A program made the translations under genes and the position numbers. Positions 43,057-50,247 of a DNA stretch of 64,000 nucleotides are shown here, one piece after another. The stretch covers positions 5,063,001 to 5,127,000 of the forward strand of contig NZ_JAUSZK010000001.1 in NCBI RefSeq assembly GCF_030817495.1, given 5' to 3'. This DNA comes from Streptomyces sp. V3I7 (GTDB lineage Bacteria; Actinomycetota; Actinomycetes; Streptomycetales; Streptomycetaceae). How positions within the stretch are numbered: the stretch's first letter is position 1; the number at the start of each line of letters is the position of its first letter. The notes under the pieces were generated by a model. That model did not search any database. It was not told the origin of the DNA and saw only the letters and a list, made by a program, of their open reading frames with translations.

Positions 43057-43114
43057 GCCCCCGTACGGCGTCTCCCTCATCCCCGCACCGCCCACTCACA
43101 AGGACGTGAACCGC

Positions 43115-44170
43115 ATGCGCAAGACCGCCAGATACGCGTCGACGGCCGCCGCCGGCCTGCTCGCCCTCTCCTCGCTCACCGCCTGCGCCAACGACGCGGC
43201 CGGCCCGACGGCCGACAGTGGCCACGGCGGCGGCAAGGGCGAGAACGTCAAGATCATGGTGGGCGGCCTGGACAAGGTCATCTACCTGCCGGCGATGCTC
43301 ACCCAGCGCCTCGGCTACTTCAAGGCCGAAGGGCTGAACGTCTCCCTGCTGAGCGAGCCCGCCGGGGTCCAGGCCGAGACCGCGCTCGTCTCCGGCCAGG
43401 TGCAGGGCGCTGTCGGCTTCTACGACCACACCCTCGACCTCCAGGTGAAGGGCAAGTCCGTCGAGTCCGTCGTGCAGTTCTCGCACGCGCCCGGCGAGGT
43501 CGAGATGGTCTCGGCCAAAGCGGCGGGCGACGTCACCTCGCCCAAGGACTTCAAGGGCAGGAAGCTCGGCGTCACCGGCCTCGGATCCTCGACCGACTTC
43601 CTGACCAAGTACCTCGCGGTCAAGAACGGCGTGCAGGTCAGCGAGTTCACGCCCGTGGCGGTCGGAGCCGGCCCGACGTTCATCGCGGCCCTGCAGAAGG
43701 GTGCGATCGACGGCGGTATGACGACCGACCCGACCGTGGCCACGATCCTGGACAAGAAGGCGGGCAAGATCCTCCTCGACATGCGGACGCCCGAGGGCTC
43801 GCAGAAGGCGCTGGGCGGTCCGTACCCGTCGTCCAGTCTGTACATGCAGACGGACTGGGTGAACGGCCACAAGGACACCGTCCAGAAGTTGGTCAATGCA
43901 TTCGTCAAGACGCTCAAGTGGATGTCCACCCACAGCGCGTCCGAGATCGCGGCCAAGATGCCCGCCGACTACTCCCAAGGCGACAAGGCGCTCTACGCGG
44001 AGGCGGTCAAGAGCACGCTGCCGATGTTCACCGACGACGGGGTGATGCCGAAGAACGGCCCCGAGACCGTTGAGAAAGTTCTCAAGGCGTTCAACCCCAA
44101 CATCAAGAACGCCAAGGTGGACCTGGACAAGACGTACACGACCGAGTTCGTCGAGAAGGCCGCCGACTAG
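43115..44170 (+). CDS. NitT/TauT-type ABC transporter, substrate-binding lipoprotein
   Basis: 351 aa. The lipoprotein signal peptide has the lipobox LTAC-A near residue 23 (GLLALSSLTACAN). The NMT1/THI5/SsuA-like periplasmic-binding fold follows: GGLDKVIYLPAMLTQRLGYF, then LSEPAGVQAETALVSGQVQG and GRKLGVTGLGSSTDFLTKYL. Such proteins bind nitrate, sulfonates, aromatic acids or thiamin precursors; the ligand cannot be assigned. ATG 43115 follows AAGGA (43100-43104) at 10 nt; GTG 43106 sits too close to it. It is the last gene of the ABC operon and converges on the second response regulator. Confidence 0.92.
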   Translation: MRKTARYASTAAAGLLALSSLTACANDAAGPTADSGHGGGKGENVKIMVGGLDKVIYLPAMLTQRLGYFKAEGLNVSLLSEPAGVQAETALVSGQVQGAVGFYDHTLDLQVKGKSVESVVQFSHAPGEVEMVSAKAAGDVTSPKDFKGRKLGVTGLGSSTDFLTKYLAVKNGVQVSEFTPVAVGAGPTFIAALQKGAIDGGMTTDPTVATILDKKAGKILLDMRTPEGSQKALGGPYPSSSLYMQTDWVNGHKDTVQKLVNAFVKTLKWMSTHSASEIAAKMPADYSQGDKALYAEAVKSTLPMFTDDGVMPKNGPETVEKVLKAFNPNIKNAKVDLDKTYTTEFVEKAAD

Positions 44171-44197: not shown

Positions 44198-44878
44198 TCA
44201 GGCGCGGGTCGCCCACACGTAACGGTGTTCCGGGCGGCCCGCGTCGCCGTACCGGAGCGTCAGCCGGGCCCGGCCCGTGCGCTCCAGGTGCTTCAGATAG
44301 CGCTGCGCGGTCTGCCGGCTCACACCGGTCCGCTCGGCGATCTCCTGGGCCGACAGCGGGCCCTCCGCGTGCAGCAGCGTCTGCCGTACCAGCTCGGCGG
44401 TGGTGGGGGAGTGCCCCTTGGGCAGCTCGGGCTCCGACGGCGCGGACAGCGCGCCGAAGATGCGGTCCACCTCGGCCTGTTCGGCCTCCCCGCCGCCGTC
44501 CAGGGTGCGGCGCAGCCCCGCGTACGCCTCCAGCTTGACCCGCAGGCCCGCGAACGCGAACGGCTTCACCAGGTACTGGAGGGCGCCGTGCCGCATCGCC
44601 GCCTGTACGGTCGCCACGTCCCGCGCCGCGGTCACCATGATGACGTCGGTCTGATGGCCGCGCCGGCGCATCTCGCGCACGACCCTGAGCCCCGTCTCGT
44701 CAGGCAGGTAGTGGTCCATGAGGACCAGGTCGAGCCGCGGCAGCGCCTCCACCTGGCGCAGGGCCGCCGCCGCGTTGTGCGCCTCGCCGGCCACCCGGAA
44801 GCCCGGCACCTTCTCGACGTAGGCGGCGTTCACGCGCGCGACCCGGGGATCGTCGTCCACCACCAGGACCTCGATCAT
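44198..44878 (-). CDS. CitB/DcuR-type response regulator, partner of the kinase
   Basis: 226 aa. The receiver has VLVVDDDPRVARVNAAYVEK, the phosphorylation Asp in LVLMDHYLPDETGLRV, and YLVKPFAFAGLRVKL. The C-terminal HTH is AQEIAERTGVSRQTAQRYLK. It starts inside the kinase stop codon (ATGA overlap at 44875-44878), so the two are co-translated. It is the paralogue of the regulator at 40540-41232, on the opposite side of the ABC operon. Confidence 0.94.
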   Translation of the reverse strand: MIEVLVVDDDPRVARVNAAYVEKVPGFRVAGEAHNAAAALRQVEALPRLDLVLMDHYLPDETGLRVVREMRRRGHQTDVIMVTAARDVATVQAAMRHGALQYLVKPFAFAGLRVKLEAYAGLRRTLDGGGEAEQAEVDRIFGALSAPSEPELPKGHSPTTAELVRQTLLHAEGPLSAQEIAERTGVSRQTAQRYLKHLERTGRARLTLRYGDAGRPEHRYVWATRA

Positions 44879-46557
44879 CGCGCCTCCTCCTCGGTGAGGG
44901 CGGCCACGCGCGCGGCGAACGCCGGGGCGGTGTCCGGTTCGGGTCCGGCGTCGGTCAGGGCCTCCGGAAGGACGACCGTGAACTCCGCGCCCCCGCCGTG
45001 CGCCTCGTCCACCTCCGCGCTGCCGCCCTGACGCTCGGCGAGCCGCCGTACCAGGGAGAGACCCAGACCGCGCTTGCCGTGCGCGGGCGGCTCCTTGGTC
45101 GACCATCCCTCGGTGAAGACCAACTCCCGCCGCTCCGCCGGGATTCCGGGGCCCGTGTCGCGCACCACCAGGACGGCCGTACGCCCCTCGGTGCGCAACT
45201 CGACCTCCACGCGCGCGTGGAGCCTGCCCGCGACGGCGTCGAGCGCGTTGTCCACCAGGTTGCCGACGACGGTGACCAGGCCCCTGGGGTCGATCAGCCG
45301 GTCCGGGAGCCGGGTGCGGTCCGAGACCCACAGGGCGACGCCGCGCTCGGCCGCCACGGTCGCCTTGCCGACCAGCAGGGCGGCGAGCAGCGGGTCCTGG
45401 ATCTTCTCGGTGATCTGCTCCGCGGTGACCCGGTGGTCGCCGACCACCTCGCCGACGAACTCCACGGCGTCGTCGTACATCTCCAGTTCGAGCAGGCCCA
45501 GCAGCGTGTGCATGCGGTTGGCGTGCTCGTGGTCCTGGGCGCGCAGGGCGTCGATGAGGCCGCGGGTGGAGTCGAGTTCGCGGCCCAGTTGTTCCAGCTC
45601 GGTGCGGTCGCGCAGGGTGGCCACGGCGCCGCCGTCGTCCGTGGGCATCCGGTTGGCGACCAGGACCCGCTGGCCGCGGACGGTGAGCAGATCGGTGCCG
45701 GTCACCCGGCCGGCCAGCACGTCGGTCGTCCGGCCCGCGCCCAGCGCCGCGTCCGGAGACTGCCCGACGGCCTCGTCGCCGATGCTCAGCAGGCGCCGGG
45801 CCTCGTCGTTGAGCAGGCGGATGCGGCCGCCGCGGTCGAGGGCGACGACCCCCTCGCGGATGCCGTGCAGCATCGCCTCCCGCTCCGCGAGCAGCGCCGA
45901 GATGTCCGAGAAGGCCAGGTCCCGGGTCTGCCGGTGGACCCGCCGGGAGATCACCCAGGCCGCCAGCGCACCGACCGCGAGGGCGCCGCCCGCGTACGCG
46001 AACAGCCCGGGGATCGCGCTGAGCAGCCGGGCGCGCACGCTGTCGTACGCGATGCCCACCGAGACCGCCCCGACGATCCGGTGCCGTGCGTCGTACAACG
46101 GCACCTTCCCGCGCGCGGAGCGGCCCAGAGTGCCCTCGTCGATCTCCATGACCTGCCGGCCCGCCAGCGCCTGGCGGGGGCTGGTCGAGACGTGACCGCC
46201 GATCTCCCCGGGCGTGGTGTGCGACCAGCGGAGGCCCCGCCAGTCCATCACCACGATGTACTCGGCGTGCGTGGCCCGCCGGATCCGCTCGGCCTCCCGC
46301 TGCACCGGGCCGCCGGGAGTCGGCGGCGTGTTCAGGACGCCCTCGGCGATCTCGGGATCCTGCGCCGTGGTCTGGGCGATCGCCAGCGCGCGGCGCATCG
46401 CCTCCTCGTCCAGCTGCTTGCTCAGCGGGGCCAGGAACAGCCCGGTGGCCAGCACCGCGACCCCCGCGGCGATCGCCACCTGCATGAGCAGCACCTGCGA
46501 GAACACCCGCCGTGGCAGACCGAGGCGCAGACGTCGCGCGGGGGGAGTGGGGCTCAT
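44875..46557 (-). CDS. DcuS/CitA-type sensor histidine kinase
   Basis: 560 aa. A membrane span (VFSQVLLMQVAIAAGVAVLA) precedes an extracytoplasmic Cache/PAS sensor (residues 45-165, with AEYIVVMDWRGLRWSHTTP) and a second span (GLFAYAGGALAVGALAAWVI). A cytoplasmic PAS domain follows (LLAEREAMLHGIREGVVALD), then the H-box DHEHANRMHTLLGLLEL of CitA/DcuS kinases and an HATPase with NLVDNALDAV, DTGPGIP and KRGLGLSLV. It likely senses a di- or tricarboxylate outside the cell. ATG 46557 has TACCGT 7 nt upstream on the minus strand. Confidence 0.94.
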   Translation of the reverse strand: MSPTPPARRLRLGLPRRVFSQVLLMQVAIAAGVAVLATGLFLAPLSKQLDEEAMRRALAIAQTTAQDPEIAEGVLNTPPTPGGPVQREAERIRRATHAEYIVVMDWRGLRWSHTTPGEIGGHVSTSPRQALAGRQVMEIDEGTLGRSARGKVPLYDARHRIVGAVSVGIAYDSVRARLLSAIPGLFAYAGGALAVGALAAWVISRRVHRQTRDLAFSDISALLAEREAMLHGIREGVVALDRGGRIRLLNDEARRLLSIGDEAVGQSPDAALGAGRTTDVLAGRVTGTDLLTVRGQRVLVANRMPTDDGGAVATLRDRTELEQLGRELDSTRGLIDALRAQDHEHANRMHTLLGLLELEMYDDAVEFVGEVVGDHRVTAEQITEKIQDPLLAALLVGKATVAAERGVALWVSDRTRLPDRLIDPRGLVTVVGNLVDNALDAVAGRLHARVEVELRTEGRTAVLVVRDTGPGIPAERRELVFTEGWSTKEPPAHGKRGLGLSLVRRLAERQGGSAEVDEAHGGGAEFTVVLPEALTDAGPEPDTAPAFAARVAALTEEEAR

Positions 46558-46564
46558 GACCACG

Positions 46565-47722: not shown

Positions 47723-48979
47723 CTAACCGGGGAGGGGCTGAGGCGGCCGCGGCCCCACGTAGTGGCCGCTCGGGCGCATCCGCAGCGGGCGCTCGCCGTA
47801 CTCCTCCAGGGCGTGCGCGATCCAGCCGGCGGTGCGCGCGACCGCGAAGATCGTCTCGCCGGCCGTCGCCGGCATGCCGGAGGCGACGGTGAGGACGGCG
47901 AGGGCCAGATCGACGTTGGCGTGCAGCGGGGCGTGGCGGGCCGTGGTGGCGACGATGTCGTGGGCCGCGAGAAGGGCGGGTTCCGCCGCGGGGATCTGTT
48001 CCAGGAGAGCGAACAGGGCACGCGCGCGCGGGTCTTCACCCTGGTAGAGCCGGTGACCGAGTCCGGGGATACGGCGGCCCGCGCGGAGTTCGTCCGCGAT
48101 CACCGGGACCGCGGTGCCCTGCTCGAGAACGTCGAGCAGCAGCCGGTGCGCCAGACCGCTGGCCGCGCCGTGCAACGGGCCCTCCAGGACGCCGAGTCCG
48201 GCCGAGACGGAGGCGTAGGCGTGCGCCCGGGCGGAGGCGGCGACCCGTACGGCGAGGGTCGAGGCGGCCAGGTCGTGGTCGACGAGCAGGGCGAGCGCGG
48301 TGTCGAGGGCGCGCAGCGACGTCTCGTCGGGCTCGCGCGCGGTCAGCCGGCCCCACAGACGGTGGGCCAGTGGGCCGTCGTCCCGGTGGCCGTACGGCTC
48401 GGGCGGGAGGGCGGCCACGAGCGTGGGGATGAGGACGCGCGCCGTCCCGAGCACGGCCTCCTCGGACAGGTCGAAGCGCAGGGGGTCCTCGGCCGCCGCG
48501 GCGATCGCGGCGACCCGCAACCGGTCGGTGGGAGAGGTGTGTTCGGGCAGCGCGTCGACGGCACGGCGGGCCACGGCGACGGTGGACTCGGGCGCGGTGA
48601 AGGTGACGCCGGGGCTCATCCGCCCGGTCCACAGCCACTCGGCGACCTCTTCGTAGGAGTGGTGTGCGGCGAGCTGGGTCGCGTCGACGCCCCGGAAGTA
48701 GTACCGGTCCTGGTCGATCAGCGTGATGCGGGTACGGACGGACAGCTCGCCGCCGGAACCCGGACTCCCCGCGCTGTCCCGCCTGTTGCGCCGGGCCAGG
48801 GCCTCCACCTCGGCGGCGTCGAAGGTGCTGCCGCGCCCGCCGGGTGCGCGCCGGCTGCCGAGCTGACCGCGGCTCACGTACGCGTAAACCGTCTCCGGCT
48901 TCACGCCCAGCAGTTCGGCGGTCTCCCTGGTGCTCAGCCTTCGCTCGGGGTGGTGGGGAGCGGGTTGTTGATCGCGCAT
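47723..48979 (-). CDS. Citrate-synthase-family protein with N-terminal helix-turn-helix
   Basis: 418 aa. Residues 12-65 are a MerR/excisionase-like HTH (RLSTRETAELLGVKPETVYA, VSRGQLGSRRAPGG), then a short linker and a citrate synthase domain (about 95-405). Catalytic residues are kept: GPLHGAASG (first His), GLGHRLYQGEDPR (second His) and LHANVDLAL (Asp). It could be both an enzyme and a DNA-binding regulator of the divergent gene. ATG 48979 has TACGGT 7 nt upstream. The 100-bp gap to the divergent citrate synthase holds AT-rich palindromes. Substrate (acetyl- or propionyl-CoA) not determined. Confidence 0.9.
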   Translation of the reverse strand: MRDQQPAPHHPERRLSTRETAELLGVKPETVYAYVSRGQLGSRRAPGGRGSTFDAAEVEALARRNRRDSAGSPGSGGELSVRTRITLIDQDRYYFRGVDATQLAAHHSYEEVAEWLWTGRMSPGVTFTAPESTVAVARRAVDALPEHTSPTDRLRVAAIAAAAEDPLRFDLSEEAVLGTARVLIPTLVAALPPEPYGHRDDGPLAHRLWGRLTAREPDETSLRALDTALALLVDHDLAASTLAVRVAASARAHAYASVSAGLGVLEGPLHGAASGLAHRLLLDVLEQGTAVPVIADELRAGRRIPGLGHRLYQGEDPRARALFALLEQIPAAEPALLAAHDIVATTARHAPLHANVDLALAVLTVASGMPATAGETIFAVARTAGWIAHALEEYGERPLRMRPSGHYVGPRPPQPLPG

Positions 48980-48986
48980 GGGGGTC

Positions 48987-48992
48987 ACCGTA
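48987..48992 (-). promoter_or_regulatory. TACGGT -10 box
   Basis: On the minus strand, it lies 7 nt before ATG 48979: leaderless pattern. Confidence 0.5.
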
Positions 48993-49005
48993 GCCGCCCC
49001 CCCCG

Positions 49006-49030
49006 TCAAGTTGATCGAATCAATATTGAC
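49006..49030. promoter_or_regulatory. AT-rich palindrome cluster between the citrate synthase genes
   Basis: Overlapping palindromes: TTGAT-CGA-ATCAA (49011-49023) and TCAATATTGA (49020-49029), preceded by TCAAGTTGA (49006-49014). It is a likely operator shared by both divergent genes. Confidence 0.6.
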
Positions 49031-49080
49031 AGTTATCCAGTCAAGCATGGACAGTCGGATCAAGTCCAGGGAGGAAGAAC

Positions 49081-50247
49081 ATGTCCATCAACAGGGCCGG
49101 AGCCACCCTTGTCGACGTGCCACGCGGACTCGCGGGCGTCGTCGTCACCGACACCGAGATCGGTGACGTGCGAGGGTCCGAGGGCTTCTACCACTACCGC
49201 CAGTACTCGGCCGTCGAACTCGCGCAGACGCGCAGCTTCGAGGAGGTCTGGCAGCTGCTCGTCCACGGCGAACTGCCGGACGCGGAGCGGGGTGCGGCGT
49301 TCGCCGCGGAGACCGCGTCGCTGCGGCGGCTGCCCGACGAGGTCCGGGCGGCCCTCCCCGCGATCGCCGCGGCGAGCCGGGTGTCGGGGCCGCTGGCCGG
49401 GATGCGGACCGCGCTGTCGCTCCTGGGCGCGGCACGAGGGTTCCGGCCGGTGTACGACATCGGCGCCGACCGGCGCCGCGCGGACACCGTCGCCGCCTGC
49501 GCCGCCGTACCCACGCTGCTGACGGCGCTGTACCGGCTGGGGCAGGGGCTGGAGCCGGTGGAGCCGCGTGAGGATCTCTCGTACGCGGCCAACTACTTGT
49601 ACATGTTGACGGGTGTGGAGCCGGACCCGTTGCGGGTCAGGGCGATCGAGCACTACCTGATCTCAACCATTGATCACGGATTCAATGCGTCAACGTTCAC
49701 CGCGCGGGTCATCGCGTCGACGGGGGCGGATGTGGCGGCGTGCCTGGTGGGAGCCGTGGGCGCGCTGTCCGGGCCGCTGCACGGCGGTGCGCCCAGCCGG
49801 GCGCTGGACACCCTGGACGCGATAGGCACGCCGGACCGGATCGACGGCTGGATCCGCGAGCGGGTCCTCGCCGGCGACCGCATCATGGGCTTCGGCCACG
49901 CGATCTACCGTACGGAGGACCCTCGTTCACGGATGCTCCGCGACCTCGCTCGTACCTTCGGCGGCCCGCGCGTCGACTTCGCCATCGAGGTCGAACGCCA
50001 CGTCGAGGCGATCCTCGCCGAACTGAAACCCGGCCGCGAACTGCACACGAACGTCGAGTTCTACGCGGGCGTGGTCATGGAACTGTGCGGCCTGCCCCGC
50101 GAGATGTTCACCCCCACGTTCGCCGCGGGCCGCGTGGTGGGCTGGAGCGCGAACATCCTGGAACAGGCGGAGGACTCGAAGATCATCCGCCCGGTGGCGC
50201 GGTACGTGGGCCCGGAGCCGGCGGTGAGGGTGCCGGCCATGAGGTGA
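49081..50247 (+). CDS. Citrate synthase / 2-methylcitrate synthase family enzyme
   Basis: 388 aa. It condenses an acyl-CoA with oxaloacetate. Typical parts: GFYHYRQYSAVELAQTRSFE near the start, NASTFTARVIASTGAD, GPLHGGAPSRALD (first catalytic His) and MGFGHAIYRTEDPRS (second). At the third catalytic position the sequence is HTNVEFYAG, with Glu where E. coli-type enzymes have Asp. GGGAGGAAGAAC precedes ATG 49081. It is divergent from the HTH-citrate synthase, which may regulate it. The main citrate synthase gene of Streptomyces probably lies elsewhere. Confidence 0.92.
   Translation: MSINRAGATLVDVPRGLAGVVVTDTEIGDVRGSEGFYHYRQYSAVELAQTRSFEEVWQLLVHGELPDAERGAAFAAETASLRRLPDEVRAALPAIAAASRVSGPLAGMRTALSLLGAARGFRPVYDIGADRRRADTVAACAAVPTLLTALYRLGQGLEPVEPREDLSYAANYLYMLTGVEPDPLRVRAIEHYLISTIDHGFNASTFTARVIASTGADVAACLVGAVGALSGPLHGGAPSRALDTLDAIGTPDRIDGWIRERVLAGDRIMGFGHAIYRTEDPRSRMLRDLARTFGGPRVDFAIEVERHVEAILAELKPGRELHTNVEFYAGVVMELCGLPREMFTPTFAAGRVVGWSANILEQAEDSKIIRPVARYVGPEPAVRVPAMR

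Follow-up and report, generated by a model that had tools for sequence, protein, structure and literature searches.

Comparative analysis of a divergent gene pair in Streptomyces sp. V3I7 indicates that a citrate synthase fused to an HTH DNA-binding head (HTH-CS) is probably the cognate regulator of a condensing enzyme, forming a one-component, enzyme-derived system that would act through an inverted-repeat element, block A, between the two genes. The pair lies in a window of 64,000 nucleotides, by which we mean the whole stretch of DNA that was analysed.

The fusion protein and its divergent partner

The fusion gene (47723..48979, minus strand; 418 aa, as in the database copy P0001) and its partner, a citrate synthase of 388 aa with an NVEFYAG active site (49081..50247, plus strand), lie where an earlier note on this DNA had placed them; both were assigned from open reading frames and Pfam, and the partner also from kinship. 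The fusion start, ATG at 48979, agrees with P0001, and an in-frame GTG is found at 48988. The two genes are separated by a gap of 101 bp that holds TTGATCGAATCAA/TCAATATTGACA. On the partner's side, the sequence GGAGG at 49070..49074 (plus strand) provides a ribosome-binding site. On the other side, a possible −10 of the fusion gene, TACGGT (48987..48992, minus strand), stands 7 nt 5' of the ATG, which suggests a leaderless fusion mRNA; CCGTA was found again ahead of the fusion gene in most of the printed Streptomyces loci. The window also encodes, beside the pair, a sensor kinase with a single-Cache (sCache_3) domain and a response regulator (44198-46563), this sensor type being known from citrate and dicarboxylate sensors, and, near the pair, an NMT1-like binding protein (43106-44170). 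By synteny, the fusion and the partner are the likely counterparts of S. coelicolor SCO5831 (citA3) and SCO5832 (citA4), the former assignment being supported by synteny with SCO5830/5829/5828 (PMC9739823).

The same note had claimed a DNA-binding head on a citrate-synthase-like protein, and this was borne out by Pfam. The head (48782..48937, minus strand) matched HTH_17, a MerR/excisionase-like family, with E 4e-8 and is modelled by AlphaFold as a winged HTH (pLDDT about 85-92); the body (47771..48748, minus strand) matched Citrate_synt (PF00285) above its cut-off with E 5e-63 and has the citrate synthase fold, and the partner matched the same family with E 6e-111. Enzyme fold and DNA-binding domain are thus combined in one protein, as in a trigger enzyme. 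Compared with the BldC, MerR and excisionase winged HTH proteins, the fusion scored above the cut-off for HTH_17 and below it for the MerR, BldC and excisionase profiles (PF13411, 20.0 vs 21.6 bits; PF00376, 19.7 vs 28.2 bits); MerR-type domains are present in many homologues in precomputed lists. In a structure search of the fusion, the CS domain filled the match list, and for the HTH head we obtained just a weak sequence match (E 0.2) to 6amk/6ama, which we take to be BldC. The recognition region of the HTH, LGVKPETVYAYVSRG, is near invariant, as are the catalytic residues, and a more distant HTH-CS branch keeps the hallmark LGVKRETIYAYVSRGLL together with most of the active site.

That the fusion keeps its catalytic residues, as had also been claimed, is correct for His/His/Asp/Arg and incorrect for one other position. 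Among 240 homologues (the 120 top-scoring ones from each of two larger searches, own copy included), the three His and the first Arg of the site are kept in 240/240, each of the other two Arg in 239/240, and the catalytic Asp in 235/240, with Glu in the remaining 5; the Asn of the NAST motif, which has a role in the CS active site, is Ala in all 240. The motifs of 112 Streptomyces fusions read from their loci were in agreement. The partner itself has Glu instead of the catalytic Asp, like its closest solved structure, B. subtilis citrate synthase 1 (PDB 2c6x), which has the same Asp-to-Glu site.

The universal loss of the NAST Asn in this set favours an alternative in which HTH-CS is a pure sensor-regulator, its CS domain binding a ligand and making no citrate, and so do distant relatives that keep the HTH and lack one or two catalytic His (P0241-P0243, P0281, P0292; also the L178 protein described below). 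We regard this alternative as possible but the less probable case, because apart from such cases nearly every listed member retains His, His, Asp and Arg, as do the fusions of all 11 loci that have no partner; these share the same eight active-site residues with 101 other fusions.

Block A and its distribution in Streptomyces

Both palindromes that the earlier note had read in the gap are present, TTGATCGAATCAA at 49011-49023 and TCAATATTGA at 49020-49029. From sequence and conservation we define block A, TTGATCGAATCAATATTGACA (49011..49031), as the dyad TTGAT-N3-ATCAA plus TCAATATTGA. A weakly conserved extra half-site, GTCAA (49005..49009), adjoins it, and extra upstream copies occur elsewhere. 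Block B, GTCAAGCATGGACAGTCGGATCAA (49040..49063), was defined by conservation and contains the counterpart of a published MtrA site. The last half-site of block A, TTGACA, possibly also serves as the partner −35, and GACAGT (49050-49055) in block B, which follows 18 nt past it and has A and T at the key −10 positions, may be the −10; a simple promoter scan, in which no sigma-70-like promoter passed, gave this guess no support. On this assignment the dyad lies upstream of and over the presumed −35. MerR operators sit between −35 and −10 with a 19-20 nt spacer; the element here is an inverted repeat, and on the same tentative assignment the partner promoter would have an 18-nt spacer, shorter than the MerR type.

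Palindromes arising by chance were considered and rejected. A search for TTGATNNAATCAA with up to 2 mismatches gave 5 matches in the window vs 0.60 expected, the sole perfect one being in this gap, and TTGATNNAATCAANNTTGA has a single perfect copy in the genome, again in this gap; the reversed and shuffled controls given below were at or close to zero. Furthermore, in 104 Streptomyces loci the block A consensus aTTGAttcaATCAAtaTTGACAg reached 1.70 bits per column and the block B consensus agTCAA.caTgGACAGTcgaatCAag 1.39 bits, compared to 0.41 bits for the 8 free positions between the blocks and 0.17 bits for the upstream flank; these loci were chosen for a recognisable core, so the selection bears on the conservation of the core and leaves the values for flank, gap and block B unaffected. 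TTGACA is nearly invariant. Block A keeps an almost constant distance from the partner ATG (49-52 nt in 66 of the 80 loci measured), and its distance from the fusion varies from 20 to 89 nt, which anchors block A to the partner promoter.

We examined relatives for gene pairs that lack the operator, the outcome by which the earlier note had proposed to refute its reading, and found none. All 130 distinct divergent-pair loci, which share descent and hence are not independent, carry the dyad and/or the core (0 without both). The dyad TTGAY-N3..7-RTCAA is found in 121/130 (0.2 after shuffling) and the core TCAAYRTTGA likewise in 121/130 (0.1 after shuffling). These loci have fusion and partner divergent and at most 700 nt apart, and those identical in the last 120 nt are counted once. 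Loci in tandem, with separated genes or without a partner are excluded, as are truncated (L187/L225, L220) and remnant (L180, L181, L201, L202, L206) ones.

At the level of whole genomes, calls at E 1e-100 in 246 Streptomyces genomes gave 162 with the fusion and 160 with the partner: 156 have both genes, 80 neither, 6 the fusion alone and 4 the partner alone. An operator pattern allowing at most 1 mismatch matched 149/246 genomes (reversed control, 0), namely 145/156 with both genes, 1/6 with the fusion alone, 3/4 called partner-alone and 0/80 with neither. The neither-gene class was set at E 1e-100, and 15 of its 80 members also had a more permissive fusion search (E 1e-3), so that the remaining 65 may still contain a diverged fusion; the operator pattern occurs in none of the 80. 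Absence of the operator from the 11 pattern-negative pairs was rejected, since the 10 that were read all hold variants with an indel or more mismatches. Three genomes (G136, G173, G256) were rejected as cases of partner and operator without fusion, because their fusion falls below the E-value threshold or is cut off by a contig end; the fourth, G027, truly lacks the fusion and has no operator. Overall, partners without a fusion (1/160) are rarer than fusions without a called partner (6/165).

Loci in which one gene has moved or been lost serve as natural experiments. No operator element was found within 600 nt upstream of the partner in 11/11 loci where it has no adjacent fusion (L128, from G027, and L129-L138, from another family of the order); L128 retains GGACAGTC / ATGGACAGTC of block B and not block A. 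Where the partner has moved 2.4 kb away (L059), a perfect block A stands ahead of the partner and none ahead of the fusion, and in a tandem arrangement (L108, identical in sequence to L012) block A precedes the partner and an imperfect copy precedes the fusion.

Conversely, there are 11 distinct loci with the fusion and no partner in the flank. For seven of these (L037, L043, L044, L062, L081, L100, L104) this means absence from a 4-kb flank, with a genome-wide partner search for L081 (= L166, G205) only. The dyad and core of block A persist in 5/11 (L037, L043, L044, L062, L160), which allows some autoregulation, are decayed in 2/11 (L081 and L104) and are absent in 4/11 (L017, L100, L164, L165); the GGACAGT of block B was not found within 350 nt in any of the 11. 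Although block A is lost or decayed in 6/11, the HTH and the active site are intact in 11/11. Therefore, either the HTH acts on some other target or these loci lost the partner recently.

In addition, several loci contain damaged partners. At L201 and L206 (G119, G453) the partner frame is interrupted at the same residue and then runs on into foreign-looking sequence common to both, which resembles an insertion; the operator is intact. At L024 and L139 (G012) only about the first hundred partner codons remain beside the fusion, the operator is still there, and the genome contains a longer piece of the partner at another position.

A gene encoding a CoA-transferase III may represent a second target. 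In the window's own genome, a TTGATTSARTCAA dyad lies just before the start of such a gene (G000:C1:1433381-1434775; L117, L239), and similar dyads precede CoA-transferase III genes at L235-L237, L261-L267, L269 and L279, mostly in fusion-bearing genomes. We searched 30 of the 162 genomes with a called fusion and 30 of the 84 without one. Counting orthologues with 70% identity or more, and leaving out four that had been found through the operator pattern itself, the dyad occurs in 9/12 fusion-bearing vs 1/5 fusion-lacking genomes (Fisher p 0.10), and no dyad was found at orthologues below 70% identity in either genome class searched. These data are suggestive, and we do not claim the gene as a target.

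HTH-CS loci in other lineages

A class-wide search (E 1e-60) found the fusion in 43/296 genomes and 12/114 genera, own genus included. In other actinobacterial families the fusion is 43-62% identical and the operator is kept: an element lies between the genes in 21/21 readable loci outside Streptomyces that have a CS partner. The dyad measures 13 bp in most Streptomyces; elsewhere its length ranges from 13 to 16 bp, and in 8 of these 21 loci it is present without the core, indicating that the exact footprint has shifted among lineages.

In some loci the divergent gene is of a different kind. HTH-CS stands opposite an HMGL-like gene of the homocitrate/isopropylmalate synthase family, for example at L177:3040-5740 and L179:5165-7840; this partner matches PF00682 and HCS_D2, falls below the cut-off for NifV homocitrate synthase and has no family in common with CS. 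All five intact loci of this type (L177/L184, L179, L185, L186, L233) carry an element between the genes; at L233 this is the core, with no dyad. The HTH-CS/HMGL gap of G039 contains the sole such dyad of an 11-kb stretch, and an unpaired CS orthologue in the same genome has none. At L181, where both the HTH-CS and the adjoining HMGL gene are broken, there is no operator.

HTH-CS proteins are also found alone. One from another class (L234), 37% identical to the query, is preceded by GTCAACGTTGACCGAATCAACGTTGATC, and two TCAACGTTGA palindromes lie 15 bp apart ahead of it (L234:1430-1460), which suggests that it may autoregulate. A second, diverged HTH-CS that has lost catalytic His residues was observed in G003 (L178:771-6981), followed on the same strand by genes for a YrdC-like protein, a citrate synthase and MmgE/PrpD; no obvious dyad was seen in the printed region upstream of it, and the locus is possibly a pathway cluster with a pure sensor regulator. 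By source names, HTH-CS occurs in Kribbella, Acidimicrobiales, Leptospira and Caulobacteraceae as well, so the architecture is widespread. Re-citrate synthase belongs to the HMGL superfamily. We give even chances to a broader proposal, in which HTH-CS proteins would be old, phylum-wide, CS-based regulators with one operator, whose target has been swapped between a Si-type CS and a non-homologous HMGL enzyme (which might be a Re-citrate or a homocitrate synthase), and a CS sensor would thereby gate citrate flux; the CoA-transferase III gene would perhaps be a further target in some Streptomyces.

The gene pair has been described previously under other regulators. PMC12323332 treats citA3 and citA4, by synteny the same pair and intergenic region, as two citrate synthases under MtrA, and its main text contains neither the term HTH nor the term DNA-binding. 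According to that report, in S. coelicolor MtrA binds a probe from the gap and represses both genes, which rise late in an mtrA mutant; citA3 (the fusion) is steadily expressed and citA4 (the partner) variable. A review (PMC10704036; original, Liao 2014) states that GlnR represses citA and citA4 in Saccharopolyspora erythraea, matched here by gene name, and SCO5831 is reported to be more abundant under phosphate proficiency (PMC9739823, PMC8981147). An alternative is that the palindromes serve a global regulator, be it MtrA, GlnR, PhoP or the two-component system encoded nearby, with HTH-CS binding elsewhere or not at all. We consider this improbable. The MtrA site TTGACTTAACTGTCCA, reported at −16 of SCO5832 (PMC12323332), is 12/16 identical to the minus strand of 49048-49063 and thus maps on block B, not on block A. 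Moreover, block A is missing from the 80 neither-gene genomes and from the partner-only loci, among which G027 keeps part of block B and no block A; it is found with the fusion where the divergent gene is an unrelated HMGL gene, and also ahead of a lone HTH-CS. An operator that moves with HTH-CS in this way is not expected of a promoter element or of a global regulator.

Least credible of all is that the HTH head is structural or vestigial only and the conserved blocks merely the partner promoter: the near-invariance of TTGACA and its nearly fixed spacing would fit this, but conservation includes the dyad upstream of the −35, partner-only promoters manage without the dyad, the same dyad stands ahead of HMGL genes and a lone HTH-CS, and the HTH residues are conserved as strongly as those of the enzyme.

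Proposed regulation and its significance

Control of the partner by the fusion through the palindromes, the central claim of the earlier note, therefore has strong comparative support from the divergent pairs, the fusion-less partners, L059 and the HMGL loci; direct binding of HTH-CS to block A, the ligand and any residual catalysis are inferred. We propose that the CS domain would dimerise, as judged from its family, and present two HTH heads to the TTGAY/RTCAA half-sites. Block A overlaps the likely partner −35, and its occupancy would set transcription of the divergent condensing enzyme (CS, or an HMGL-family enzyme elsewhere). The kept active site would most likely bind substrates or product (oxaloacetate, acyl-CoA, citrate) and couple them to operator binding. 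Repression appears somewhat more likely than activation, since the operator includes a perfect −35. Binding near −41 would be compatible with an activator too, and that fusion-less partners are rarer than partner-less fusions points mildly toward activation. Some observations weigh against the simplest form of this model: variable dyad lengths and loci with dyad or core only are not readily explained by a rigid dimer, MtrA acts on the same region, so HTH-CS is not the sole regulator, and common descent and promoter function account for part of the conservation.

Trigger enzymes are known from PutA, BirA, NadR and the like. The fusion resembles them in joining a metabolic enzyme fold to a DNA-binding domain, which would couple substrate level to transcription, and in having by comparison a putative cognate operator near a metabolically related target. 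It differs in that a CS-based trigger enzyme was not found in the open-access literature (PMC3901225 cites Commichau and Stulke 2008 on trigger enzymes). Most likely, the fusion is an enzyme-derived regulator of the trigger-enzyme kind, built on citrate synthase. In B. subtilis, the LysR-type regulator CitR adjoins the minor citrate synthase CitA. The present pair resembles citA/citR in that the partner is divergent from its presumed regulator, and differs from it in that the regulator is a citrate synthase with an HTH_17 head. We found no description of the fusion as a regulator, or of the DNA-binding head of this protein, in the open-access literature, consistent with the earlier suggestion of an undescribed system; the regulatory role of the HTH-CS architecture as a whole seems likewise undescribed.

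Citrate synthase controls entry into the TCA cycle. If the proposal is true, a CS fold would act as a transcription factor controlling its own isozyme, and the oxaloacetate, acyl-CoA or citrate status of antibiotic producers would be read out directly at the genetic level; this would help to explain why Streptomyces has several citrate synthase genes, and it could offer a possible biosensor. Judging from the published gene names, the pair is present in S. coelicolor, which makes the prediction quickly testable.
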